Shown here in pieces: positions 23,867 through 50,493 of a stretch of DNA of 64,000 nucleotides. Every line of letters starts with the position of its first letter. The first letter of the stretch is position 1. The stretch is from assembly GCA_034521975.1 (NCBI GenBank), contig JAXHLR010000010.1:124001-188000 (forward strand), in the 5' to 3' direction. The notes below the pieces were generated by a model. It was not told the DNA's origin. It saw only the letters and a list, made by a program, of their open reading frames with translations, and searched no databases. The translations under genes and the position numbers were made by a program. Source of the DNA: Acidimicrobiales bacterium. Its GTDB lineage: Bacteria; Actinomycetota; Acidimicrobiia; Acidimicrobiales; SKKL01.

Positions 23867-24250
23867 ATGCACCTGTCCAAGAACGACATCCCGGTCCGGG
23901 TCGACGCCCCCGGGGCCATCGCCCGTCAGCTCCCCGACTTCGGGACTGCGTCGGGTGCCATCGGCGCCGAGTACTTCACCATGGCGACCGGCACCGACCT
24001 GGCACCCCTCTTGCAGGGGCTCGACGGCGATCTGTGCCAGTCACCCCACTGGGGCTATGTCATCACCGGCGACGTGGTGATCACCTACACCGATGGCACC
24101 GAGGAGCACGCCGTGGGCGGCGAGGTGTTCCACTGGCCCGCTGGTCACACGGTTCGTGTCGAGGAGGACGCCGAGATCATCCTCTTCAGCCCCCAGGACC
24201 TGCACCGCCCGGTGATCGACCACATCGGCGCCCAGGTGGCAAACGCCTGA
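23867..24250 (+). CDS. cupin-domain protein
   Basis: The 127-aa protein folds as a single cupin: motif 1 region SPHWGYVITGDVVITYTDG and motif 2 region VFHWPAGHTVRVEEDAE. His in PHWG and in GHTV could bind a metal, but the full G(X)5HXH(X)3,4E set is incomplete. ATG 23867 follows an ACAGGAGGAAC site. It is downstream of the TIGR03086 gene and ends just before a strong hairpin (24260-24300), which may end the transcript. Confidence 0.82.
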   Translation: MHLSKNDIPVRVDAPGAIARQLPDFGTASGAIGAEYFTMATGTDLAPLLQGLDGDLCQSPHWGYVITGDVVITYTDGTEEHAVGGEVFHWPAGHTVRVEEDAEIILFSPQDLHRPVIDHIGAQVANA

Positions 24251-35978: not shown

Positions 35979-36156
35979 CGAGCCACCGTCGCTCGTCGTC
36001 GCTCAGTGGCGTTGCCAGGGCGTCGCCGAGTCGGTCTTGACGAAGGGCCCGTACCGCCAGGGTGACGGTGTGGCCGACGGTGGTGCCCAGCTGGTCGGCG
36101 AGGCGTTTGAGCTCCTCGTGGGTGGTGGAGTCGATCCGCACGCTCGTACTGTGCAT
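35962..36156 (-). CDS. ribbon-helix-helix-type antitoxin of the MazF module
   Basis: The 64-aa protein begins MHSTSVRIDSTTHEELKRLA, a ribbon-helix-helix DNA-binding pattern (SVRID strand, then helix), with an acidic C-terminus DDERRWLDADLR that should wrap the toxin. It starts at ATG 36156; ATG 36168 or 36186 would add a few residues. It should repress its own operon. The gene overlaps the MazF gene by 17 bases. Confidence 0.8.
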   Translation of the reverse strand: MHSTSVRIDSTTHEELKRLADQLGTTVGHTVTLAVRALRQDRLGDALATPLSDDERRWLDADLR

Positions 36157-36178
36157 GCAGATCAGCATACAGCCATCG

Positions 36179-36562
36179 TCAGGCATGGTCGCCGCCGAGG
36201 GTGTGGCGGCCGAGGTAGGCGTCAGGTGCGAGGTAGACGAGGTGGTCGAGGAACTCGGTGTCGAGCCGGTCGATCAGGTCCTCGACCGCTCGGTCGGGAT
36301 GGCCGGTCGCCACGTCGAACAGCACGCCCCCGGCGGCGTCGAGCACGCGCTCCACGCGGAGCACGGTCAGCCAGTCCTCGTTGATCTGGCCGTGGACCTC
36401 GACCGCGGAGCTGCCGGGCAGCACCTCTCGCAGCAGGTCGATGATGACCGCTGGCAGCATCTCGGCCAGCTCACGCCCGAGCCGTGAGTGTTGGTCGAGG
36501 AGGGTGTGGTAGCGGCTCCGCAGCCCATAGTCGGGGGCGTCTCCGCCGTCGTCGTTCGCCAT
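36179..36562 (-). CDS. hypothetical protein in the toxin-antitoxin cluster
   Basis: A 127-aa acidic protein I do not recognise. It is mixed alpha/beta, with RYHTLLDQHSRLGRELAEML (helix), PAVIIDLLREVLPG, then EDWLTVLRVERVLDAAGGVL and a C-terminal EFLDHLVYLAPDAYLG. No catalytic or membrane motif is seen. It lies between the MazF pair and the DUF5615 toxin, after a strong hairpin. Confidence 0.6.
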   Translation of the reverse strand: MANDDGGDAPDYGLRSRYHTLLDQHSRLGRELAEMLPAVIIDLLREVLPGSSAVEVHGQINEDWLTVLRVERVLDAAGGVLFDVATGHPDRAVEDLIDRLDTEFLDHLVYLAPDAYLGRHTLGGDHA

Positions 36563-36589
36563 GGCAGAAAGGTACCGATGGGGTCTGAC

Positions 36590-36629
36590 ATTGGGGCCTA
36601 CTCGTGAGCGCCACGAGAATGGCCCCAAT
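36590..36629 (-). terminator. nested hairpin after the DUF5615 gene
   Basis: Outer arms ATTGGGGCC (36590-36598) and GGCCCCAAT (36621-36629) enclose inner arms CTCGTG (36601-36606) and CACGAG (36612-36617). It begins eight bases past the DUF5615 stop, so it likely ends that transcript. Confidence 0.65.
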
Positions 36630-36637
36630 CGGCTTGC

Positions 36638-37006
36638 TCAGCGGATCGGGAGGTCTCTGACGGCAAGCCTGATGGGGCTGAGAGAGACGATCACGCCTCG
36701 CTCTAGGTCACCTGCGATGGTGGGAAGGTTCGCCAAGAGCAGGTCGACGTGGGCGTCTGGGCCAAGCTCAGCTACCTGACGCAGTTGGATGACCGATGGA
36801 CTCGCTGATCGGCGGAGTGCGAGTAGCGCTCCGAAGTCACTGTCGGCTGTGACGACGGTTCGTTCCTCGGCAACTGCCTGATCGAAGATCTCGTCGTCGG
36901 AGGCTTCGAGCAGCTCAAGGTCGGCGACATGAGCGGCATCGAAACCGGTCTCTCGAAGCTTGCTGGCGACGCGTGGCGACAGGTTGGCGTCGATGAGCAG
37001 CTTCAC
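36638..37006 (-). CDS. DUF5615 PIN-like toxin
   Basis: The 122-aa protein opens MKLLIDANLSPRVASKLRET and has ADLELLEASDDEIFDQAVAE and VVTADSDFGALLALR. The Asp residues (D6, D35-D38 region, D53-D56) form a PIN-like RNase centre. DUF5615 proteins are the presumed toxins of DUF433-DUF5615 pairs. Its ATG overlaps the DUF433 stop by four bases, antitoxin first. Confidence 0.87.
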   Translation of the reverse strand: MKLLIDANLSPRVASKLRETGFDAAHVADLELLEASDDEIFDQAVAEERTVVTADSDFGALLALRRSASPSVIQLRQVAELGPDAHVDLLLANLPTIAGDLERGVIVSLSPIRLAVRDLPIR

Positions 37007-37233
37007 GCGGGACGGGTGATGCGTACCTCACGCTCGTTGACCGCCGACGCGGCGTACTCGAGGGCAGCGAGGATGTCGGCCCGGTCGAGGTAGGGGTAGT
37101 CCTCGAGGATCTCATCGGTCGTCCGGCCAGAAGCGAGCTGGCCGAGGATCATGCTCACCGTGACCCGCGTGTCGCGGATCACCGGGAGCCCCCCCATACG
37201 TTCGGGGTCGGTCGTGATGCGCTCAAACGCCAC
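37003..37233 (-). CDS. DUF433 antitoxin
   Basis: The 76-aa protein has the DUF433 pattern: FERITTDPERMGGLPVIRDT, TVSMILGQLASG and EDYPYLDRADILAALEYAA, a small HTH. GTG 37233 is the only suitable start after the preceding region. It should neutralise the DUF5615 toxin and repress the operon. The gap to the MNT gene (37234-37392) holds only a weak inverted repeat GGATGCA/TGCATCC. Confidence 0.87.
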   Translation of the reverse strand: MAFERITTDPERMGGLPVIRDTRVTVSMILGQLASGRTTDEILEDYPYLDRADILAALEYAASAVNEREVRITRPA

Positions 37234-37392
37234 GATCGAAGTGTACGCCCGGACCCCTGTTTGGTCACCGCCGTGTCTTCTCACCATGGCGGAACTCTAC
37301 GCAGGGGCTAGGACACTCAAAGGTGCGAAAGCCAGATGGATGCATGTCTGAGGCAATGAGGCCCAGGTGCATCCGAGCCCCGTCCTGTCGAC

Positions 37393-37701
37393 TCAAAGGG
37401 GCACAGCCTCCGCCAGGATCTCGTTCCGCAGCCGCTCCCGCAGGGATTCTGGCGTGCCCACGTCTACCTTGACGCCGAGCGCTTCCTCGAGTTCGACGCC
37501 GATGGAGAGGATCTCGAAGGGTCGGGGCTCGGGCTCGAGTTCTACGAGGAAGTCGATGTCGCTTCCCGGCTGCTCGTCGCCTCGTGCCACCGACCCGAAT
37601 ACGGCGACGGACTGTCCGTGATGGCGCGCCACGATGGCCTTGATCTCCTCCCGGTGGGCTTCGACCAGGTCCCAGAGCGGCCTCAGGGCGACATCCGACA
37701 T
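37393..37701 (-). CDS. MNT-type nucleotidyltransferase (MntA-like), no HEPN partner
   Basis: The 102-aa minimal nucleotidyltransferase has the GSxxRG motif at 36-41 (FGSVARGDEQ) and DID at 48-50 (SDIDFLVELE). In HEPN-MNT modules MntA AMPylates and silences the HEPN RNase toxin. No HEPN gene flanks it: downstream is DUF433, upstream the PLD helicase on the other strand. It may act alone, or its partner may have been lost. It diverges from the helicase gene. Confidence 0.88.
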   Translation of the reverse strand: MSDVALRPLWDLVEAHREEIKAIVARHHGQSVAVFGSVARGDEQPGSDIDFLVELEPEPRPFEILSIGVELEEALGVKVDVGTPESLRERLRNEILAEAVPL

Positions 37702-37826
37702 AGGCCCAGCTTACGACGAGCATCCCCACGAGTGGGGTTGGCAATTCCTACCTCTGCACGGAAAGGGGGCAATCAGGCCAGCCAAGTCCCGACACCGCTC
37801 GGGGCGAGCTCGTACCCTCGAGCTCC

Positions 37827-40800
37827 GTGGGCGAGTTGGAGCGTGGGCTGTACGAGGAGTTGGTCACCGACGGGTTGCGCCCGGTGCTCGACGAGCTCGA
37901 TCCCACCTTGCGCCGACTCCAGGCGCTCGACCCGGCCGAGGCTCCCGACCGGATCGCTCTGCATCTGGCCCGCCAGATCGAGCTGGCGTTGGCGTCGCTC
38001 GGCGACCGCCGCCGGGTCGAGGTCGGCATCGAGGTGGCCCGCACGCTGCTCGCCCGGCTCACCGAGGTGACCGACGTCGACACAGCGGACGAGCGGCCCG
38101 ATCCCGCGGCCGAGGTGTTGCGTGCGGTCTATGGCCGTCGACCCGACGGGAGCCCCGAGCCGATCGTCGAGCCGCTCATTCCGCTGTTGGACTCGACGCT
38201 GCTCACCAACTCACCCGACGAGCCGGCGCTCGCCAAACAGATCGAGGCCGAGATCGATTCGGCGCAGTCGATCGATGTGGTGATGGCGTTCATCCGTCGC
38301 TCGGGCATCCGTCCGTTCTTCGATCCGTTGCGCCGCCACTGCGAGGCCGGTCGGGGGCTGCGGGTCCTCACCACCACCTACACCAACTCCACCGAGCGGG
38401 CGGCGCTCGACGAGCTGGCCGACCTGGGGGCCGAGGTCCGGGTGTCCTATGACCAGTCGACCACCCGCCTGCACGCCAAGGCGTGGGTGTTCCACCGCTC
38501 GGGGACCTCGACGGCCTATGTCGGGTCGTCCAACCTCACCCGTTCGGCCCAGGTCACCGGCCTGGAGTGGAACGTGCGGCTCTCCGCGGCCCGCAACCGG
38601 TCGATCCTCGAGAAGTTCGCCGCCGTGTTCGACACCTACTGGAGCTCCGGCGACTTCGTGGCCTATGACCCGGACCACTTCGACGAGGAGACCGAGCGGG
38701 CGGGGCGGGCCGATCACGGTCCGCTGGTGCTGTTGAGCCCCACCGAGATCCGGGCCGAGCCGTTCCAGGAGCGGTTGTTGGAGCTGATCGAGCTGGCCCG
38801 CCGGCGGGGGCATCACCGCAACCTGTTGGTGGCCGCCACCGGTACCGGCAAGACGGTGATGGCCGCCCTGGACTACGCCCGGTTGCGCCGGCACCTGCCC
38901 CGAGCCCGGCTCCTGTTCGTCGCCCACCGCGAGGAGCTGTTGAACCAGGCGCTGGCCACGTTCCGCCATGCGCTGCGTGACGCCAGCTTCGGGGAGAAGT
39001 GGGTGGGCGGCTCCCGGCCCGAGCGGTTCGAGCACGTGTTCGCGTCGATCCAGAGCCTGTCGGCCGCCGATCTCGACCACCTCGACCCCCGACCACTTCG
39101 ACGTGGTGATCGTCGACGAGTTCCACCACGCGGCCGCCCCCACCTACGACCGGCTCCTCGCCCACCTGCAGCCCGTCGAGCTGTTGGGGATGACCGCCAC
39201 CCCCGAACGCAGCGACGGTCGGTCGGTCCTCGGCTGGTTCGACGACCGCATCGCCGCCGAGCTGCGCCTGTGGGACGCCATCGACCAGCACCGTCTGGTG
39301 CCGTTCGCCTACTACGGCATCCACGACGGGCTCGACCTGACCGACATCCCGTGGCGGCGGGGGCAGGGCTATGACACCGAGGCGCTGAGCACCCTGTACA
39401 CCAGCACCGACGCCTGGGCCCGCACGGTGATCCACGAGCTGATGCGCCACGCCGATGATCCCGACACGATGCGGTGCCTGGGGTTCTGTGTGAGCGTGGC
39501 CCACGCCCGCTACATGGCCGAGCGGTTCCGGCACCACGGGATCGACGCGGTGGCAGTCACCGGCGAGACGCCCGACGACGAGCGGCGCCGAGCGCTGGAG
39601 GACCTGGCGGCGGGACGGGTGCGGGTGGTGTTCTCGGTCGACCTGTTCAACGAGGGTGTCGACGTGCCCGCCATCGACACGGTGCTGATGCTGCGGCCCA
39701 CCGAGAGCCCGACGCTGTTCCTCCAGCAGCTCGGCCGTGGTCTGCGCCGGGCCGACGACAAGGCGTTCTGCACGGTGCTCGACTTCGTGGGTACCCATCG
39801 CCGCGAGTTCCGGTTCGACCGGCGGCTGCGGGCGCTGCTCGGCGGCACCCGCCGGGAGATCGAGCGCCAGGTCGAGGCCGGGTTCCCGTTCCTGCCGGCG
39901 GGCTGCCACATGCAGCTCGACGCCAAGGCGAGCGAGATCGTGATCCGCAGCCTGCGCGAGGCGATCCCGTCCCGCTGGCCGGCCAAGGTCGAGGAGCTGC
40001 GGCTGCTGCGCCGGGAGCGTCCCGAGCCGACGCTGGCCGAGTTCCTGGACGAGTCGGGCCTCGACCTGGCCGACGTGTACGACGGGTCGCGCACCTGGTC
40101 GGATCTGTGCGAGGCGGCCGGGGTGGCGCCGTTGCCGGCGGGGGAGCACGAGGTGCCGCTGCGCCGGGCGGTGGGCCGGTTGCTGCACGTCGATGATGAC
40201 GAGCGGATCGGGTTCATGCGGGAGCTGCTCGGTTCGGCTGCGCCGCCCGACGTGGCGGCGATGCCGGAGCGGCAGCGACGGTTGTGCCACATGCTGGTGG
40301 CGTCGCTGGTCGACCAGGTGCCGGCGGCCCGGTCGATGTCGGTGCAGGACGGGCTCGACGTGGCGTGGGCCCATCCCCAGGTGCGGGCCGAGCTGGCGCA
40401 GCTGATCGACGTGTTGGACGAGCGGGTCGATCATCTCCACGGTTCGCTCGAGGGTCATCCCGATGTGCCGCTGCAGGTGCACGCCCGCTACTCCCGGATC
40501 GAGATCCTCACCGCGTTCGGCGAGGTGGAGGCTGCGAAGGCGGTGTCGTGGCAGAGCGGGGTGTGGGAGGCGAAGGCGTCTCGCAGCGAGCTGTTCGCCT
40601 TCACGCTCGACAAGAGCAGCGGCTCGTTCTCACCGACCACCCGGTATCGGGACTACGCCATCAGTCCCCAGGCTGATCCACTGGGAGAGCCAGGCGTCGA
40701 CACGGGCCGACAGCGCGACCGGACTGCGCTATCGCAACCACGAGGCCGAGGGCCGGTCGATCATGCTGTTCGCCCGCCTCCGCCAGACCGACCGAGCGTT

Positions 40801-40924
40801 CTGGTTCCTCGGCCCCGCCACCTACCAAGGCCACACCGGCGAACGCCCCATGGCCATCACCTGGGAGCTCCACCACCCTCTCCCCGGTGACCTTTACGCC
40901 ACCTTCGCCGCCGCCGTTGCGTAA
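37827..40924 (+). CDS. PLD-like nuclease / DEAH helicase / DUF3427 fusion, two frameshifts
   Basis: The protein is about 1031 aa once corrected. It has an N-terminal PLDc-like domain (HAKAWVFH, His216/Lys218, then GSSNLT), a superfamily 2 helicase with Walker A AATGTGKT, DEFHH box, SAT-like GMTATPERSDG and C-terminal QQLGRGLRRADDK, then a DUF3427 tail (SPTTRYRDYA; GERPMAITWELHHP). One extra C in C5 at 39086-39090 and one in C4 at 40666-40669 break the frame; removing both gives exactly 1032 codons including TAA. Such proteins occur in defence and repair islands. It may cleave or remodel foreign DNA. Confidence 0.85.
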
Positions 40925-40999
40925 ATGAGTCAGTGACTCATCTGGAGCATCGAATCGTCCGCCTGCATGCCAATGAGTCTGATTGGCATCAGATGCTCC
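40925..40999. terminator. cluster of palindromes between the helicase and the methylase
   Basis: Right after the helicase stop is a 17-bp palindrome, ATGAGTCA-G-TGACTCAT (40925-40941). Then come nested arms GGAGCATC (40944-40951)/GATGCTCC (40992-40999) and ATGCCAAT (40967-40974)/ATTGGCAT (40982-40989). It lies between convergent genes and at the left edge of an AT-richer island, so it may be a two-way terminator or a mark of insertion. Confidence 0.6.
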
Positions 41000-41002
41000 G
41001 CA

Positions 41003-42123
41003 TCAAGGGAGCATGGTGATGACCAGTTCCTGCGACTGTCGGCGGGCTGCACGCTGTAAGCCGTTACCGCCAAGGGTGCTGAACCGACTTGAGGTAGCCG
41101 ATACGTCAACCCGGAACCAGCGACGAGCAAGAGCAACGATCTCCTCACCCGCGAGGCCATTGCTTGCGCGGTATTGGGGAAACGTGGCCACGACTCGACA
41201 TCCGCGTTCACCCAAGCAGGCCAGCAGCTCCTCCATGAGGACACTCGCCTTTGTTATCTGACTGAAGCCCGAGCGTTCTCTCAGTTCCAGTGCGGGCGCT
41301 CTACCGGCACCGTGGACTTCCGAGTAGCCTCCGACGGCAATTGCCTCCAGGACATGGTAAAAGCGACTGTACTGAGCCGAGGAGTAGGGCGGGTCGACGA
41401 AGACGAGCTCTCCGCCCTCAAGTGATCGGGCATGCTTGATGGCGTCTTCTTGGATGCTCTTCCCTCGTCGGGATGCGTGCCGAGGTGCAAGAATCGCAAG
41501 CGTCCGCTCTACTTCCGCAAACACATCACGCCCCCAGATCGAAGCGATGTGGGGCAGGGCACCGGTGGTCAGCTTAAAAGGCTGTGCCGTGTGCCCGGGT
41601 GAAGCGGAGCAACGGCTAGCCGCTGAGATCAGGGCAGCGAGGCAGAGGGTTCGGTGCGGAGCTCGTTGCGGGAGTCTATGGAACAAGTAGTGAATACCGG
41701 CGGCCGAGCAGGACTGAGACAGTAGCCGCCATACGAACGGCAGAGTTCCCGCTCGTCGTCCTCCGTGAGCCTCCGTAGTGCCCGAATCCGTCTGGGCGTC
41801 AGACTGCACTCCATGGCCGCCGTGGTCGCCTCAACTAGCGGGTCACCCTCGAGGTCGGATTTGGCAGCTGATATCCACGACCGAGTCAGGCGCTTCGCAT
41901 CTAGTGGTCGGGTCCGACTGATTACCGCCCCGCTGAGCGCCACGGCGTAAGCCTGTAGATCGACTGCTGTGACCTCCAGACTGAGTTCCTCGGCAGCGAA
42001 CATCGCAACAGCGCCCGAACCAGCGAACAGATCGATAAAGGGCCGATCGGGCAGCGCGACGCGGCGGAGTTGTTCACCAAGACCGTTTTCGAGTTGCCAG
42101 CGCTTTGAACCCATGTACTTCAC
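41003..42123 (-). CDS. D12-class DNA adenine N6-methyltransferase, one-base frameshift
   Basis: From GTG 42123 (GTGA overlap with the upstream stop) the frame reads VKYMGSKRW, then PFIDLFAGSGAVAMFAAEE, the AdoMet motif of D12 methylases. After about 41700 the similarity moves to the next frame (LAALISAASRC, AQPFK, then FVDPPYSSAQYSRFYH, the catalytic DPPY) and runs to 41003. Adding one base restores 374 codons including stop, so one base is missing between about 41640 and 41710. The enzyme resembles COG3392 adenine methylases. It is the last gene of the three-gene cassette and could mark self DNA. Confidence 0.82.
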
Positions 42124-43463
42124 GCTGCGATACCCCACAGGCCGATCAGCTCAAGGTGGGAGAGCCGAGTGAGCGGGGTAGGGCACGTGGTCACCGAGGC
42201 TGCTGGGTCGTATGGTCTCCTGCATTGAGCCAGTCCTGCAGATCCTCCATCACGAGCAGTGATGTCGCCCCACAGGTCCACTAGTTCCTCGGCTTCGGGG
42301 GCGTTGGCCCAGAGGCCGCGGTCGATGCCAAGCAGCCCCCACCAGAAAGAAGCGTCAGCGAGCTCCAGACCCGCCTGGTGGAGAAGCTGTCGCGTTGCAC
42401 CAGTCGCCATGACCAAGAGCAGGGTTGCCCGCGACATAACCTCGAGGTGGCGGTTCGGATCGCTGGGACCCGAGCGCCCTCTTGCGTTGTCGATGACCAG
42501 TAGGTCTCCAGGCTCGGCTTGCCGACGGAGAAACTGCGTGAGGAGCTCTCGGCGGGGCCCCTCGATGTTGTTGCCGTCGAGTAGCTGCTCAATCCTCCAG
42601 CCGAGCGGGTCAGCCCCGCCAGCGGCTGGGTGAGGGAGTGACTCGTGTGCTGCCTCGAGAGTGAGCCTCAGAAAGTGACGGCTAATCGTCCTGAACCCAC
42701 TGCCCGCAGGTTCGAGAGCGTTCCAGAGGGCTAGAGCAAATCTGGCATTGTCCGCGGTGGGAACGGGCGGTCTGGCAAGGACCCTCGCCGGCCGATAGCT
42801 AGCCTCATTCCGCGACTCCTGGTCCCTGGAAGTCCGCTTGAGATCAAGGCCGAACTCGAGCAACCAGTTGCGCGCCCGCGGCTCCCAGGTTCCGAGCGCG
42901 GGCGCGGCTGCGAGCCAGGACGAGAGGGAACTGCCGAATGGAGTGACGGCCATGCCCACCACCTCGGTTGAGTCGCGAGACCGTGCCCACTCTGAGAGCG
43001 CCAGCCAGGCGAACTTGTGGGTACCAAGACGCTGCCCAAACACCGAAACCGCCTTTGGGTCCGTAACTGCGATGTGTCGGTTGTTCAGTACGCCGATGCC
43101 CTGGCTTGCTAGGAGTCCCATCGCTGCGCGTAGCTCGGCGTAGTACGCTAGGTGCCGCGCGGTAACGGTGTCGCCCATGAGATCGGCTTGAAGTGCTCTT
43201 CCGAGAAAGGACCATCCGTCCATAGTGTGGAGGGGGACCGAGGCGGCAACGTACTCTGCGAGGTGCTTCTGGTTGAGGGCTCGTTCACTCCTCAGATCCT
43301 TTTGAAGGCGCGCTACAACGTCAGTTCTGTAGCGATTCCTCGTGCCAAGCCAGCGGTCTGCATCAAGATATGACCGAAGGCTTGCGCAAGCTGAGACCGT
43401 AGCCTCCGGCGACGCCTTTGCAATCAGGTTCCTACTAGACGGTTTGAGGCCTTGATCGGGCAT
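42120..43463 (-). CDS. unrecognised 447-aa protein of the DGQHR-methylase cassette
   Basis: The protein matches no family I know. It is largely helical and soluble. The segment DGWSFLGRALQADLMGDTVT and following HLAYYAELRAAMGLLASQG (83-122) looks like the helical core of HEPN/AbiV-type or YaaC-like proteins. An R-x6-H pair (Arg266, His273, RLTLEAAH) would fit a HEPN site but is weak evidence. Trp-rich ASFWWGLLGIDRGLW lies at 371-385. It sits five bases after the DGQHR gene and overlaps the methylase by four bases, so the three are one transcript. Composition is close to the island, below the genome mean. Confidence 0.75.
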   Translation of the reverse strand: MPDQGLKPSSRNLIAKASPEATVSACASLRSYLDADRWLGTRNRYRTDVVARLQKDLRSERALNQKHLAEYVAASVPLHTMDGWSFLGRALQADLMGDTVTARHLAYYAELRAAMGLLASQGIGVLNNRHIAVTDPKAVSVFGQRLGTHKFAWLALSEWARSRDSTEVVGMAVTPFGSSLSSWLAAAPALGTWEPRARNWLLEFGLDLKRTSRDQESRNEASYRPARVLARPPVPTADNARFALALWNALEPAGSGFRTISRHFLRLTLEAAHESLPHPAAGGADPLGWRIEQLLDGNNIEGPRRELLTQFLRRQAEPGDLLVIDNARGRSGPSDPNRHLEVMSRATLLLVMATGATRQLLHQAGLELADASFWWGLLGIDRGLWANAPEAEELVDLWGDITARDGGSAGLAQCRRPYDPAASVTTCPTPLTRLSHLELIGLWGIAA

Positions 43464-43468
43464 CGATC

Positions 43469-45001
43469 TCAGCGCTCGAGGATCTCGAGCACATCATTAG
43501 CGGCCTCGCTAATCTCATCAGTGGACTCTGCAAGCCAGAGCAGCAGGTCTCTGCGAAGCTCGCGATACCCAGTTCCTCCTCGAAAGCGAGCTTTAGAATT
43601 CCGCTGCTCCTCGTTAAGGCCTGGAGCCGAGTAGGTTCTGAAATCGTAGCTGGCTAGGGATCTCATGACGTCAGCAACGAACACGCCGACGTCCTGCTTC
43701 TTAAGCGACTTTAGGGAATCGCCAATGCCAATAGTCGAAGTCCCATCAGAAAAAGCTCCCTCGGGCCATGCTCGAAGGTTGAGTGCTTCGGACCGTACCC
43801 AGCACAGATCGTTGACAACCGCCATGATTGCTCTCACGCCCTGGTCAGTGTTGGGTAGGGTTTTTGAACCCCTGAACGCAGCGTCGCCGCCAAGGACCTC
43901 CTCTGGCTCTGCTTCCCGCAATACCTCGGCCCACTCCGCATCGCAATCACCGATTGCCACCTCAAGTTCGCTCCACAGGTGAATCACGAATGCAGCCTGT
44001 TGGGCGCGGGTCCATGGCAGAACGGCATTCTCCTCCCCCATGCGCGACCCAAACAGGCCGCCAATCTGAACCCGTCGTCCCTCCCATGACTTGATGAAAG
44101 TGGCAGTGAGCGAGCGAATCCACGCCGCCTGCGAGACCGCTTGGCGGCCGCCCTCGCCCAGCATGTCGATGCGGTCGTGCCAGGGGCTGTCCGCGTAGGA
44201 CCAGAGTGCCTCAGTGAGTTCTTGGGCCCTCGTCTCGCGGTAGACCGGCAGGCCTTCGACCCTATCCAGCCAGTCTTCGGTTCGAAGCAATGGGTAAAGG
44301 TCGTATGCAAGGCTAGTGTTGATCTTCTTAGGCTTGATATTGATCACGTAGAAGAGATAAGCCTGCCAGCTAATATCGAGACCATAGAATGCAACAACCG
44401 GCAGCTCAAACTCCCCGTCAAGCTCCGAAGTCTCCTCGAAAGCCCAGAGACGGTGCTGTCCATCAATGATCTCAATTGGTGGCAGCTTGGTTGGCGTCCA
44501 CCGGACGTCGCTCGTGGTAGCCGGGAGATGTATAGTTGAAAGCGTTTCGGCATCTGAGATAGAAATGAGGTCGCTTTGCGCGACGGTCTCGCCCTGCCTA
44601 TCATCCTTCGGTGTGAGGATGTTGACTACTAGTGCGGTCGGTAGCCATCCAGGCTTGATGAGGTCATCAAAGTCTCCGGAACGTTGCTTGGTTTTCGAAA
44701 GGGATGACCATGGGTAGCCACGGCGCACGAACTGTGCTATTTCCATGGAGCGCCCTTCGTCGTGCCGCCGCTGCACGCCGAGGTCTGCCTTGCGTGCAGT
44801 CTTCCCTTTGGTTGAACGTCGGCGAATGCCTGAGAGAGCGCGGAGCTGACTCGCCGAGATTGTGAACAGGTAGAAGTGTCCTGGCGGTCGGCGTCGGTGT
44901 TCGGCAGGGTCGAAGAGTACGTCGTCCCACGTGTCCAGCCACTGCTGGACGCGAAGGGCCGGGATCTTGGTGGGCCGCTTCTTCTTCTTGTCCGTAGGCA
45001 T
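43469..45001 (-). CDS. DGQHR-domain protein (DndB/Dpd-like)
   Basis: The 510-aa protein has a very basic N-terminus (MPTDKKKKRPTK) and the diagnostic IEIIDGQHRLWAF, DGQHR at 180-184, with downstream VINIKPKKINTSLAYDLYPLL. DGQHR proteins include DndB, the repressor linked to DNA phosphorothioation, and DpdB, which takes part in 7-deazaguanine DNA modification; both work with DNA-modification genes. No dnd or dpd gene is nearby. Its DNA is the least GC-rich of the window (the line at 44341 is 45 % GC), which points to transfer. It is the first gene of the cassette. Confidence 0.85.
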   Translation of the reverse strand: MPTDKKKKRPTKIPALRVQQWLDTWDDVLFDPAEHRRRPPGHFYLFTISASQLRALSGIRRRSTKGKTARKADLGVQRRHDEGRSMEIAQFVRRGYPWSSLSKTKQRSGDFDDLIKPGWLPTALVVNILTPKDDRQGETVAQSDLISISDAETLSTIHLPATTSDVRWTPTKLPPIEIIDGQHRLWAFEETSELDGEFELPVVAFYGLDISWQAYLFYVINIKPKKINTSLAYDLYPLLRTEDWLDRVEGLPVYRETRAQELTEALWSYADSPWHDRIDMLGEGGRQAVSQAAWIRSLTATFIKSWEGRRVQIGGLFGSRMGEENAVLPWTRAQQAAFVIHLWSELEVAIGDCDAEWAEVLREAEPEEVLGGDAAFRGSKTLPNTDQGVRAIMAVVNDLCWVRSEALNLRAWPEGAFSDGTSTIGIGDSLKSLKKQDVGVFVADVMRSLASYDFRTYSAPGLNEEQRNSKARFRGGTGYRELRRDLLLWLAESTDEISEAANDVLEILER

Positions 45002-45081
45002 CGTCTGGCGAGCCTAATCGCCGCCTACGACAGCGTCAGCGAGGGCGCTCGCCTGTCGTGCCCCCTCGGTAGCCTCCTGGG

Positions 45082-48000
45082 GTGAGTCTGGATCGGTTCT
45101 CGTCGGCGGTTCGGGGGTGGTTCGATGCGTCGTTCCCGGAGCCGACCGCGGCGCAGGCCCAGGGGTGGGAGGCGATCGCCTCTGGTGAGCACACGCTGAT
45201 CCTCGCCCCGACGGGCTCGGGCAAGACCCTCGCCGCCTTCCTGTGGGGGATCGACCGGTTGATGACCGAACCGGTCCCGGACAAGGAGCGCCGCACCCGC
45301 ATCGTCTACCTCTCCCCGCTGCGGGCCCTGGCGGTCGACGTCGAGAAGAACCTGCGGGCCCCGCTCACCGGCATCTCCCTCGCCGCCGAACGCCTCGGCG
45401 AGACCGTCCATCACCCCACCGTCGGCATGCGCACCGGCGACACCCCCGCAGACGAGCGCCGCCAGCTCGTGCGCACCCCGCCCGACATCTTGATCACCAC
45501 CCCCGAGTCGCTCTATCTGATGCTGACCAGCAAGGCCCGGGAGACCCTGGCCAACGTCGAAGCGGTCATCGTCGACGAGATCCACGCCATGGCCCCCACC
45601 AAGCGGGGCACGCATCTGGCCCTCACCCTCGAACGCCTCGAGGAGGTCACCGACCGCCCACCCCAGCGCATCGGCCTGTCGGCCACCCAACGCCCCCTCG
45701 ACGAGATCGCCCGCTTCCTCGGCGGCCGCGACGACCACGGAACCAACCGCCCGGTCACCATCGTCGACGCCGGCTCCACCAAGACCCTCGACATCGAGGT
45801 CGTGGTCCCCGTCGAGGACATGGGCGCCCTCGGCGAGATCATCGAACCCGGCGCCGGCGGCCTCCCACCCGACGTCGGTGCCCCCGGCGGCGCGATCCGC
45901 CGCTCGATCTGGCCCTCCATCCACCCCACGCTCCTCGAACTCATCCAGGAGCACCGCTCCACCCTGGTGTTCGTCAACGCCCGCCGCCTGGCCGAACGCC
46001 TCGCCACCCGCCTCAACGAGCTCGCCGTCGACGGCCGGCACACCGACGGCCCACTCATCGAAGGAGATGCCCTCGGCGCACCTCCCAGCGAGGACCAGAC
46101 CCCCGACCTGGTGCGGGCCCACCACGGTTCGCTCAGCCGAGAACGCCGCCTCATCATCGAAGACCAGCTCAAGTCCGGCACGCTCAAGGGCCTGGTCGCC
46201 ACCAGCAGCCTCGAGCTCGGCATCGACATGGGCGCGGTCGACCTCGTCATCCAGGTCGAATCCCCCGGCGCGGTGTCCCGAGGCCTGCAACGCATCGGCC
46301 GGGCCGGCCACCAGGTCGGCGAACCCAGCCGGGGCCGCATCTTCCCCAAGCACCGCGGCGACCTCGTCGAAGCCGCCGTCGTCGTCTCCCGCATGCACGA
46401 CGGCCTCATCGAACACACCCGCTACCCCCGCAACCCCCTCGACGTCCTCGCCCAACAGATCGTCGCCATGGCCGCCCTCGACGACTGGGCCCTCGACGAC
46501 CTCGCCCGCCTCGTGCGCCGCGCCGCCCCCTTCGCCGACCTCACCGACGACGTCCTGCACGCCACCCTCGACCTCCTCGCCGGCCGCTACCCCTCCGACG
46601 AGTTCAGCGAGCTGCGCCCCCGCATCGTGTGGGACCGCGTCGACGGCACCATCCGAGGCCGCGCCGGCGCCCAACGCCTGGCGGTCACCAACCCCGGCAC
46701 CATCCCCGACCGGGGCCTGTTCGGCGTCTTCCTCCCCGACGGCACCCGCGTCGGCGAGCTCGACGAGGAGATGGTCTTCGAGAGCCGCGTCGGCGAGACC
46801 TTCCTCCTCGGCGCCACCACCTGGCGCATCGACGACATCACCCACGACCGGGTCGTCGTCATCCCCGCCCCCGGCCAACCCGGCAAGATGCCGTTCTGGC
46901 ACGGCGACCGCCCCGGCCGCCCCCTCGAGCTCGGCCAGGCCCTCGGCGCCTTCGTCCGCGAGATCCGGGCCATGCCCGCCGACGAGGCCACCGCCCGCCT
47001 GCGCGAGCGCCACGGCCTCGACGAGCTCGCCGCCGACAACCTCGTCGCCTACCTCGACGAACAGGCCGAGGCCACCGGCGCCGTCCCCGACGACCGCACC
47101 ATCGTCGTCGAGAAGTTCCGCGACGAGATCGGCGACTGGCGGGTCTGTGTCCTCTCACCCTTCGGCGCCCAGGTCCACGCCCCCTGGGCCATGGCCCTGC
47201 GCGAACGCCTCACCGAACGATGGGGCATCGACCCCGACTTCATGTGGAGCGACGACGGCATCGCCCTGCGCCTCCCCGAAGCCGTCGACGAGCTCCCCCT
47301 CGACGAGCTGCTCATCGACCCCGACGACATCGACGAGCTGGTCGTCGGCGCCCTCCCCGGCACCGCCATGTACGCCTCCCGGTTCCGCGAAGCCGCCGGC
47401 CGGGCCCTGCTGCTGCCCCGCCGCCGCCCCGACCGCCGCACCGCCCTGTGGCAGCAACGCCAGCGGGCCGCCGACCTCCAAGCCGTCGCCGCCAAGTACC
47501 CCACGTTCCCCATCTCGCTCGAGACCACCCGCGAGTGCCTCAACGACGTGTTCGACCTGCCCGCCCTGCGCCAGGTCCTCACCGACCTGCGGGCCCGCCG
47601 CATCCGGGCCGTGCCCGTCGAGACGCCCCGCTCCTCGCCGTTCTCCCAGTCGCTGCTGTTCGCCTGGATCGGCCAGTTCATGTACGACTACGACTCGCCG
47701 CTGGCCGAGCGACGAGCCGCCGCCCTCGCCCTCGACCGCGACCTGCTGCGCGAGCTGCTCGGCGCCGAGGAACTGCGCGACCTGCTCGACCCCGTCGCGC
47801 TCGTCGCCGTCGAGGACCAGCTCCAGCGCCGGATCGACGGACGCCGAGCCCGCGACGCCGACGAGCTGCACGACCTGCTGCGGGTCCTCGGACCACTGTC
47901 GATCGACGAACTGGTCGAACGCAGCGAGACCGGCGACGACGGACGGGCCGCGGTCGAGACCTGGGTGCGCGCCGGGAGACGCTGGTGGGGGAGCGGCGGG

Positions 48001-49646
48001 CCTACCCGGTCACCATCGCCGATGAGGCCCGCATCGCCGCCACCGACGACGCCGCCCGCCTGCGCGACGCCCTCGGCGTGGCCGTCCCCCAGGGCCTGCC
48101 CGCCGCCTTCACCGACCCGGTGCCCGACCCCGTCGGCGACCTCGTCGCCCGCTACGCCCGCACCCACGGCCCCTTCCTCACCGCCGAGGTGGCCGCCCGC
48201 TGGGGCCTCGACCGGGCCGTGGTCGAACCCAAGCTCGTCGCCCTCGAAGACGACGGGCGCCTGGTGCGGGGCGAGTTCCGGCCCGACGGCCACGAGCGCG
48301 AGTGGTGCGACCCCGACGTGCTGCGCCAGATCCGCCGCCGGTCCCTCGCCGCCCTCCGCAACGAGATCGAACCCGTCGACGGCTCGGCCCTCGCCCGCTT
48401 CCTCCCCCTCTGGCAAGGGGTTGGCACCAGCCGCCGGGGAAACGCACGCCACGGACTCGACGCCCTCGCCGACGTCGTCGCCCAGCTCCAGGGCGCCGCC
48501 CTGCCCGTGTCGGTCCTCGAAGCCGACATCCTGCCCGCCCGCCTCGACGACTACCGGCCCGCCGACCTCGACGCCCTCGCCACCGCCGGCGACATCGTCT
48601 GGATCGGCGCCGGAGCCCTCGGCGCCACCGACGGCCGGGTCCGCCTCGTGTTCCGCGACCAGGCCGCGTTGCTAGTGCCCGACCCCACTGACGAGCCGCC
48701 CGCCGAGCCCATCCACCAGGCGATCCTCGACCACCTCACCCAGCGGGGCGCCAGCTTCTGGCCCGACCTGCAGAAGGCCGTCGCCGACGCCGGCCTGCCC
48801 TACGAGGACCAACCGGTGCTGGCCGCCCTGTGGGATCTGGTGTGGGCCGGGCTGGTCACCAACGACTCGCTCGCCCCGCTGCGCGCCCTCGGCACCCGGT
48901 CGGGTCGCCGCACCGCCGGTGCCGCGCAACGATCCCGGCGGGGACGCCCCGGACGTCTGGCCCGCACCGGCCCACCCGCCGCCGCCGGCCGCTGGTCGCT
49001 CACCACACCCCTGCTCGAACCCCACCCCGCGCCCACCGAGGCCGCCCACGCCCGAGCCCAACAACTCCTCGACCGCTACGGCGTGCTCACCCGCGAGGCC
49101 GCGCTGGGGGAGGGAGCCGAAGGCGGCTTCGCCGGGGTCTACCCCCTGCTCCAAGCGTTGGAGGACCGGGGCCAGGTGCGCCGCGGCTACTTCGTCGCCG
49201 GCCTCGGCGCCGCCCAGTTCGCCCTCCCCGGAGCCGTCGACCGCCTGCGGGCCGTGCGCGAACGAGGCGATGACGCGGGCGAGGTCCTCGTCCTGGCCGC
49301 CACCGACCCCGCCCAGCCCTACGGCGCCGCCGTCGGTTGGCCCGCCACCACCTCACCCGGCGGCCGCCCCGCCCGTGCCGCCGGAGCGTTCGTCGTCATG
49401 GCCGGAGGCGAACCCGCCGCCTACCTCGAACGGGGCGGCAAGTCGGTCCTCACCTTCGCCGACCACGAGCGCGTCGACTGGCCCTCCGCCCTCGCTGCCC
49501 TGGTCGACCGGGGCCGGTTCCGCACCCTCGAGATCGCCAAGGTCGACGGCGAACCCGTCACCAACACCGACCACGCCGAACGCCTCGCCGCCGCCGGCTT
49601 CGTCCCCGGCTACCGAGGCATGATCCGCCGCCACGACCGCCGCTGA
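45082..49646 (+). CDS. lhr: Lhr-type ATP-dependent helicase, one-base frameshift
   Basis: The protein would be about 1521 aa. It has superfamily 2 motifs: ILAPTGSGKT (Walker A), VDEIHAM (DEVH-type), GLSATQRP, VATSSLELGIDMG and QRIGRAGHQ. The Lhr-specific winged-helix and C-terminal regions follow. Family enzymes are 3'-5' helicases of DNA repair. The frame breaks at GCCGGG (47971-47976): one missing C there restores RETLVGERRAYPVTIADEAR and an exact 1522 codons. Start GTG 45082 gives MSLDRFSSAVRGWF. It borders the AT-rich cassette on its right side. Confidence 0.88.
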
Positions 49647-49666
49647 CCACCCTCCGGCCGAGATCT

Positions 49667-49701
49667 CGCGAATCTGTCGCGTCCAGCGCGACAGATCCGC
49701 G
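49667..49701. terminator. bidirectional hairpin terminator
   Basis: Perfect 10-bp arms ATCTGTCGCG (49672-49681) and CGCGACAGAT (49687-49696) with a TCCAG loop extend by CGCG/CGCG past one mismatch. It lies between lhr and the convergent VOC gene, and can serve both. Confidence 0.75.
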
Positions 49702-49740
49702 CAATGTGGTCTGGGGTGGACGGGTCGAGCGGGCGCCCGG

Positions 49741-50493
49741 TCAGAGCAGGCGGATCTCGGTGCCGCTGACCACGACCGTCTCGCCGGCCCGCCCTCGGTC
49801 GGTGGCCTGCATCTCGACCGCCGTGAGCTGATCGGGCGAGCCGTCCGGCCCCGACACGACCCGCACCACACCCCCGTCGAGCTCGATGGTGCGGTCGTCG
49901 CCGACTGCCCGGCCGACCAGGCGACCGAACCGCTCGGCGAGCGCATCCGGGTCGACGGAACGGAGCTCGACGCCGACGATGCCGTCGACGACGCCGGTGT
50001 GCGCGTGGCCCTGCCAGGCCCGACCGCCCCACGCCCAGCCATCGGGCGGGTCCATCGTGTCGAGCGAGATGAGCGTGCCGCCGGTGTCGGCCGGATGCAG
50101 GTGCAGACCCGACGCCTCGACGCCGTGGACACGAGCAGGAGGCGCGTCATAGACCACGCGCACACCCAACTCGTCGACCCGTTCGCGAGCGGCGTCGCGA
50201 TCGCCGACCTGGAGGATGAGCATGTAGCCGCCCGGTCCGCCGTGTTTGGCGAGGAACCGGGCCGACGGCGCGGTGTCGGCCACCGGCTGGAGGATCTCGA
50301 GGAAGGTGTCGCCCACCGCGAACACCGTGTTGCGCATCTCGAACACGTTCGGCGGATCGCGATGCACCCCGGCGATGTCGAGCTCGGCGACGAGCTGCTT
50401 CTCGTCCCGCCAGATGTCGTCGGTGCAGAGGGCGACCTGCCGGATGCGGACGGGGTCGGCGGGGGATCTGTCGGCGCGAGGTGGGACGCTCAT
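49741..50493 (-). CDS. VOC/glyoxalase-like protein
   Basis: The 250-aa protein has VOC-type halves: IRQVALCTDDIWRDEKQLVA, NTVFAVGDTFLEILQPVADT (Glu ligand in FLEILQP), then GVEASGLHLHPADTGGTLIS and a second module with GIVGVELRSVDPDALAERF. The first pair of modules resembles the glyoxalase-like family seen with CoA ligases and hydratases. The ATG overlaps the enoyl-CoA hydratase stop by four bases, so they are probably one operon. One copy of the 19-bp repeat lies in its first codons (50469-50487). Confidence 0.82.
   Translation of the reverse strand: MSVPPRADRSPADPVRIRQVALCTDDIWRDEKQLVAELDIAGVHRDPPNVFEMRNTVFAVGDTFLEILQPVADTAPSARFLAKHGGPGGYMLILQVGDRDAARERVDELGVRVVYDAPPARVHGVEASGLHLHPADTGGTLISLDTMDPPDGWAWGGRAWQGHAHTGVVDGIVGVELRSVDPDALAERFGRLVGRAVGDDRTIELDGGVVRVVSGPDGSPDQLTAVEMQATDRGRAGETVVVSGTEIRLL
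50469..50487 (+). repeat. 19-bp dispersed repeat, copy A
   Basis: TGTCGGCGCGAGGTGGGAC, inside the first codons of the VOC gene. Three more copies lie at 54427, 54922 and 61145, all in the same orientation. Confidence 0.55.

Follow-up and report, generated by a model that had tools for sequence, protein, structure and literature searches.

A DGQHR-domain gene and a gene of an unnamed protein family form an obligatory pair beside interchangeable DNA-modification genes

Introduction

SspE and BrxU are ParB-like restriction proteins, and the SspE and GmrSD/BrxU systems combine a ParB-like nucleoside triphosphatase (NTPase) domain with an HNH domain. DGQHR proteins, GmrS (DUF262), and DndB belong to one superfamily, for which NTPase and nuclease activities have been reported (PMC4619093, PMC10853773), and DndB/DGQHR proteins (TIGR04172, PF14072) accompany modification genes in Dnd loci. 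Furthermore, fusions of HEPN domains with ParB-like proteins have been described, as have operons that combine HEPN, ParB, and methylase genes (PMC3710099), and one family, MAE_28990, is listed as "In operon with a ParB nuclease and DNA methylase genes" (Anantharaman et al. 2013, PMC3710099, Table 1). The DndDE/CxC core systems take up modification genes of either the phosphorothioate or the cytosine methylase type (Rakesh et al. 2024, PMC10853773). Here, we describe a cassette of three genes, encoding a DGQHR-domain protein, a helical protein named MID here, and a D12-class N6-adenine DNA methylase, in a 64,000-nucleotide (nt) stretch of an Acidimicrobiales bacterium (assembly GCA_034521975.1, contig JAXHLR010000010.1, positions 124,001 to 188,000), referred to below as the window.

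Of published gene arrangements, the MAE_28990 HEPN operon comes closest to the cassette, with which it shares a ParB-like protein, a helical protein, and a DNA methylase; by comparison with the published description of MAE_28990, the two differ in that MID matches no HEPN model and has a tyrosine in place of the motif histidine. The nearest published idea is that of the DndDE core pair recruiting modifications, in which a conserved pair is likewise joined to differing DNA-modification chemistries; that pair, however, consists of an ABC ATPase and a ribbon-helix-helix protein, whereas the cassette joins DGQHR to MID, in most loci next to an adenine methylase. Dnd loci resemble the cassette in having a DGQHR protein beside modification genes, and four copies of the DGQHR-MID pair sit with dnd genes, but the DGQHR clade of the cassette lies far below the DGQHR_dnd_1 cut-off and is always accompanied by MID. 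SspE and GmrSD/BrxU have in common with it the ParB-like domain, a DGQ(H/Q)R-type motif, and a link to modification-based defence; unlike them, the cassette has no HNH match, and its partner protein is encoded separately and has a different fold. A description of the trio was not found in a limited sample of the literature naming DGQHR.

Results

The cassette consists of the following genes:

43469-45001, minus strand: DGQHR-domain protein, 510 amino acids (aa), intact (TIGR03187 match)
42120-43463, minus strand: MID, 447 aa, intact, helical, unnamed family (translation, alignment, and model)
41003-42123, minus strand: D12-class N6-adenine DNA methylase, about 373 codons, frame broken at 41710/41674 (Pfam and homologue alignment)

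A 5-nt gap separates the DGQHR gene from the MID gene, and the stop codon of the latter is overlapped by the GTG start of the methylase gene (4 nt, GTGA). Strand, order, and spacing were as stated in a first-pass annotation of the sequence when coordinates and translations were checked.

Pairing of the DGQHR and MID genes

The DGQHR gene and MID form an obligatory pair. A profile scan with MID over 84,980 species genomes gave 36 loci, which were distributed among actinobacteria, cyanobacteria, Planctomycetota, KSB1, Binatota, Chloroflexota, Pseudomonadota, Nitrospina, Spirochaetales, Ignavibacteriae, Bacteroidetes, Verrucomicrobiia, and the archaeon Methanoregula. When MID- and DGQHR-seeded searches were combined, approximately 50 distinct loci were obtained from roughly a dozen phyla and archaea; among them were the same trio, intact, in Rhizobium tumorigenes and a variant on Zymomonas mobilis pZZM405, both from the first MID search of plasmids. 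A DGQHR gene lay immediately 5' of MID in all MID-seeded loci whose contig extended far enough, with a spacing of -4 to +6 nt for most loci. In the reverse direction, with DGQHR as the only seed, MID was found in nine of nine loci of a viral collection (in one case beyond a 2.2-kb insertion), and it was the next gene for all five plasmid DGQHR proteins of the cassette clade. No MID gene stood beside more distant plasmid DGQHR genes (25 to 27% identity) in two records inspected. The forward and reverse searches together indicate an obligatory pair that is confined to this DGQHR clade, and its recurrence in about 50 unrelated loci places the gene order far beyond chance. Across the dozen phyla, MID proteins were approximately 25 to 45% identical, with gene order, overlaps, and reciprocal pairing kept. 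The co-occurrence on which the module proposed in the first-pass annotation depended was therefore borne out.

MID was rare: three matches, one of them a C-terminal fragment, were found in 296 genomes of the class, and one in 396 genomes of the phylum. The fragment (L003, 1441-1749), about 100 aa long and from a different family within the order, is probably the remnant of a lost cassette. Twelve distinct copies were on contigs of the viral collection; a single-sequence MID search of viral contigs gave no match, MID being detected there only with the profile, and a MID search of phage records gave none either. At the split locus of this collection (L083, 8121-10356), the 2.2-kb insertion lies between MID and the DGQHR gene, and the latter is in two pieces.

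Exchange of the modification gene

The modification gene beside the pair is interchangeable. Among the approximately 50 loci, a long D12 methylase of the window type was present in 26, a Dam-like D12 methylase in 11 (on the opposite strand in two), an N6/N4-type methylase (PF01555) in an upstream position in three, and dnd genes in four. The pair of Pseudanabaena (L011) is located between dnd_assoc_4 and DndC-DndD-DndE, all of which scored above NCBIfam cut-offs, and that of Methanoregula (L024) has as neighbors DndE (above cut-off), a DndD-like protein, a cysteine desulfurase, and a dnd_restrict_1-like PLD/SF2 protein (below cut-off). Six loci had no modification gene, and at least two of these (L028 and L033) end at a contig edge beside the pair. 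On a joined DGQHR and MID tree built by a quick method (LG+G4), at least 11 switches in the kind of modification gene were counted, and dnd was acquired once, within a methylase-bearing clade.

Several copies adjoin type I restriction-modification (R-M) or other candidate defense genes, so proximity to such genes, which had been raised in the first-pass annotation, was found at some loci. In many cassettes the methylase is the last gene, with housekeeping genes after it (e.g., L009 and L020), and in such three-gene cassettes any cutting must therefore be carried out by MID or DGQHR. A reverse transcriptase gene (RVT_1) lies just 5' of DGQHR-MID at L027 (2217-3395), where no methylase was found on the contig, and a 503-aa protein of unknown family, without a homologue at other copies, is encoded directly after the methylase in R. 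tumorigenes (L004, 14481-15992).

The DGQHR protein

The DGQHR domain named in the first-pass annotation was upheld by TIGR03187 (72.6 bits; NCBIfam cut-off, 58.85), while membership in the following families was not: scores fell below the curated cut-offs for DndB (PF14072, 26.9 bits; Pfam gathering cut-off, 29.1), DGQHR_dnd_1 (TIGR04172, 67.1 bits; cut-off, 450), and DpdB (NF041060, 24.2 bits; cut-off, 300). Cassette-clade relatives likewise scored 43 to 70 bits against the 450 of TIGR04172, including 52 to 65 bits for those inside dnd loci.

The model of the protein (predicted local distance difference test [pLDDT], 85) comprises a ParB-type NTPase fold at residues ~40 to 227, with an invariant DGQHR motif at 180 to 184, and a helical part at ~250 to 510. 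Fold comparison of residues ~40 to 227 gave PadC (Z score, 6.5), ParB (6.0 and 5.7), Noc (5.3), and KorB (4.8); the top seven matches were all ParB type, superposing at 2.7 to 4.6 Å across 90 to 120 residues, and were followed by SspE (Z, 3.4) and BrxU (Z, 2.9). A Foldseek search with the same model gave no match under an E value of 0.001, the ParB match having come from the second comparison. The modeled protein thus has a ParB/Srx-type NTPase fold, with modest Z scores that speak for fold and not for activity. No HNH or DUF1524 domain was detected in DGQHR or MID at E values up to 1, and family searches for the cognate enzyme of a type II R-M system placed neither of these methylase partners in an endonuclease family, although either may be a nuclease of an undescribed kind.

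Two plasmids carried other arrangements of DGQHR proteins. Novosphingobium pNL1 (L101, 4125-6434) encodes a 769-aa fusion of DndB/DGQHR with a C-terminal HEPN_Swt1-like part that scored below cut-off; another DGQHR gene and a gene for a radical SAM protein are close by. On Acinetobacter pTR3_1 (L100, 1084-5051), genes for a BglII-type restriction endonuclease and a D12 methylase are followed in a row by one for a small, probable membrane protein and one for a distant DGQHR protein; the small protein shows no similarity to MID.

The MID protein

MID was assigned to no family in Pfam, NCBIfam, or PADLOC, in agreement with its description as unrecognized in the first-pass annotation. The window protein had no match in PADLOC 2023, and 37 members gave four isolated weak ones (best E value, 0.0028). 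A confident model was obtained (pLDDT, 86; predicted template modeling score, 0.89), which is helical with a short beta hairpin at residues 131 to 141; a search for structural neighbors, as suggested in the first-pass annotation, gave no usable match in PDB, and a BFVD fold search gave none. The two halves of MID showed no similarity to each other or to the helical part of DGQHR. Across 51 MID sequences, H104, Y107, Y108, R112, T148, H149, R218, N219, and Y223 never varied, H79 was unvaried in all sequences aligning there, and S222 and D82 were nearly so; about ten polar or aromatic positions were thus identical in 50 or 51 of the 51 sequences. Such invariance of polar residues is enzyme-like and would fit an active site.

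It is conceivable, at somewhat under even odds in our judgment, that MID is a divergent HEPN protein. The order of its motifs (a YYAELRAA helix, TH after an insert, and RN-x3-Y) resembles HEPN helices 2 and 3 with the Rx4-6H motif, and comparison of the N-terminal half with HEPN-T sequences gave a P value of 0.0039 and an hhalign probability of 8.6%, with none of 60 shuffles as low. The published links of HEPN domains to ParB-like proteins and methylases, and the fusion on Novosphingobium pNL1, also speak for it. Against this reading, the Rx4-6H motif itself is missing, the corresponding residues being R218-N219-x-x-S222-Y223, with Tyr for His in all 51 sequences. Some HEPN families are without the motif His and may use another from an insert between helices 2 and 3 (PMC3710099); the invariant H149 of MID is located where such an alternative His may sit, and H104 is also invariant. 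Scores against two other HEPN sets were within their nulls, Pfam HEPN models gave no match, the MID model had no usable fold match that would place it among HEPN proteins, and comparisons of MID with YaaC and with Abi_2 gave nothing. A search for HEPN_MAE_28990 (PF18737) in relatives and 28 cassette host genomes had no match, and its controls were silent too.

The cassette in the window

The methylase gene was annotated at first pass as a D12 gene, and the assignment holds for both halves, each of which exceeds the Pfam cut-off of 22 bits for PF02086; it does not hold as a single open frame, since translation of 41003-42123 has internal stops. Relative to the Rhizobium homologue, residues 1 to 142 align in one frame (42123-41710) and residues 155 to 377 in another (41674-41006), and motif I (LFAGSG) and the DPPY-type motif (DPPYSSAQYSRFYHVLE) are present in the two frames. 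Similar breaks occur in the neighboring genes: lhr (45085-49640, plus strand) changes frame at 47973/47982, where a sister-genus homologue has one intact 1508-aa frame, and the helicase gene at 37827-40629 (plus strand) does so near 39088. Such breaks in three neighboring genes, with their frequency judged inside the window, make an insertion/deletion error in sequencing or assembly the likely cause of the methylase break, although true decay of this copy may have occurred.

Two further features of the locus are as follows:

45002-45081, no strand assigned: intergenic stretch separating the DGQHR gene from lhr, which start divergently; the promoter of the cassette is presumed here
40930-45060, no strand assigned: AT-richer island with the cassette, flanked by the PLD/SF2 helicase gene and lhr

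The island noted at first pass was evident in a G+C content of 57 to 64%, versus ~70% around it, and in a G+C content at third codon positions of 0.63 to 0.68 for the three cassette genes, versus 0.92 to 0.94 for helicase and lhr. Because of these low values, the cassette was probably acquired from elsewhere, and the evidence supports the trio as a single horizontally acquired module that is seemingly co-transcribed, as the proposed operon implies, and centered on DNA modification, a role to which its co-conservation with methylases and dnd genes also points. A scan of 45002-45081 gave no sigma-70 consensus site, and an Rfam scan of window positions 36000 to 50000 gave no match; the sole tRNA gene of the window is at 24246. 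No clean empty site was seen, because neither helicase nor cassette adjoins lhr in the relatives examined.

The PLD/SF2 helicase gene, convergent with the cassette, encodes a protein with weak likeness to RadD and dnd_restrict_1. It was considered as a fourth cassette part and dropped, since other copies had no close homologue beside them and one weak match. Small toxin-antitoxin-like genes lie at 36638-37701 (minus strand), including an MntA-like nucleotidyltransferase (37393-37701) that scored below its cut-off.

Discussion

As judged from sequence, the cassette is probably a horizontally spread, modification-linked defense module, largely in line with the inference drawn in the first-pass annotation. 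Host DNA would be marked as self by the methylase, or by Dnd enzymes at some loci; the DGQHR protein would act as a ParB-type nucleotide-binding switch that binds DNA and reports a missing mark; and MID would be the catalytic partner or effector that attacks nucleic acid, in the likeliest case as an RNase of a divergent HEPN-like kind and otherwise as a DNase of a new type, with the invader or the infected cell being stopped. Of this scheme, the obligatory pair, the exchangeable marking gene, and the ParB-type fold were observed, and the sensing, the effector role, and defense itself are inferred from them. Also in its favor are the fold matches to the restriction proteins SspE and BrxU, the invariant residues of MID, the three-gene cassettes that leave no separate nuclease, and the copies beside candidate defense genes and on viral contigs. 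A more far-reaching version, which we put forward tentatively, is that a ParB-type switch and a new catalytic family make up a "mark-blind" immune pair, which would place discrimination of self from non-self atop chemically unrelated DNA marks and recruit any available marking enzyme. The marks covered may be N6-methyladenine (from two D12 enzyme types), that of another methylase type, and phosphorothioate. Several points weigh against a defense module: the window methylase is broken, should its frame change be real; family searches recognized no nuclease domain in either DGQHR or MID; the MID model had no usable structural match in PDB; and L010, L027, and L035 hold the pair with no modification gene found, which is unexpected under a strict self-mark model.

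These last three loci also bear on the main rival explanation, according to which DGQHR and MID assist or regulate modification in a module that is epigenetic and not destructive, DGQHR limiting expression or level in the manner of DndB and MID guiding or licensing the enzyme. D12/Dam-type methylases generally work unaided, and a helper would be out of place at loci where no modification gene was found; the enzyme-like invariance of MID also argues against this role. In its favor, the modification enzymes that accompany the pair are highly diverse, which would suit a helper of general use, DndB has been reported as a negative regulator of dnd genes (PMC4507180, PMC10853773), and DpdB, a ParB-like ATPase, is reported to act in Dpd modification (PMC12839542). 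On balance, we consider a helper role unlikely. A sub-case of the defense module, in which MID is a new DNase and DGQHR-MID the restricting part of an ordinary R-M system, comparable to the ParB-HNH enzymes GmrSD, BrxU, and SspE but with its nuclease in a separate protein of different fold, appears less improbable than that, though still doubtful: DGQHR, SspE, and BrxU have the ParB-type fold in common, the invariant His/Asp/Arg/Asn set of MID could bind metal, and the small cassettes contain no other nuclease, but neither protein matched HNH or another nuclease family, no fold match was obtained, and sequence does not distinguish the DNase version from the HEPN version. Finally, a neutral hitchhiking cluster or a decaying remnant on mobile DNA, with a dead copy in the window, would fit the frame change in the D12 gene and the patchy, rare occurrence of MID; it is very improbable, since for the family it is contradicted by the conservation of order, overlaps, and pairing at the low MID identities given above, and the similar frame changes in lhr and helicase make the break probably an assembly error.

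If the defense reading is true, MID adds an undescribed protein family with enzyme-like invariance to modification-linked defense. The loci also constitute a natural experiment, in which a single pair is combined with at least four kinds of DNA-marking genes. Should the pair read these marks, one partner must sense a feature that they all share, such as bare target sites or the marking enzyme itself. The cassettes are small and plasmid-sized, and the sensing of such a common feature would be directly testable in them.

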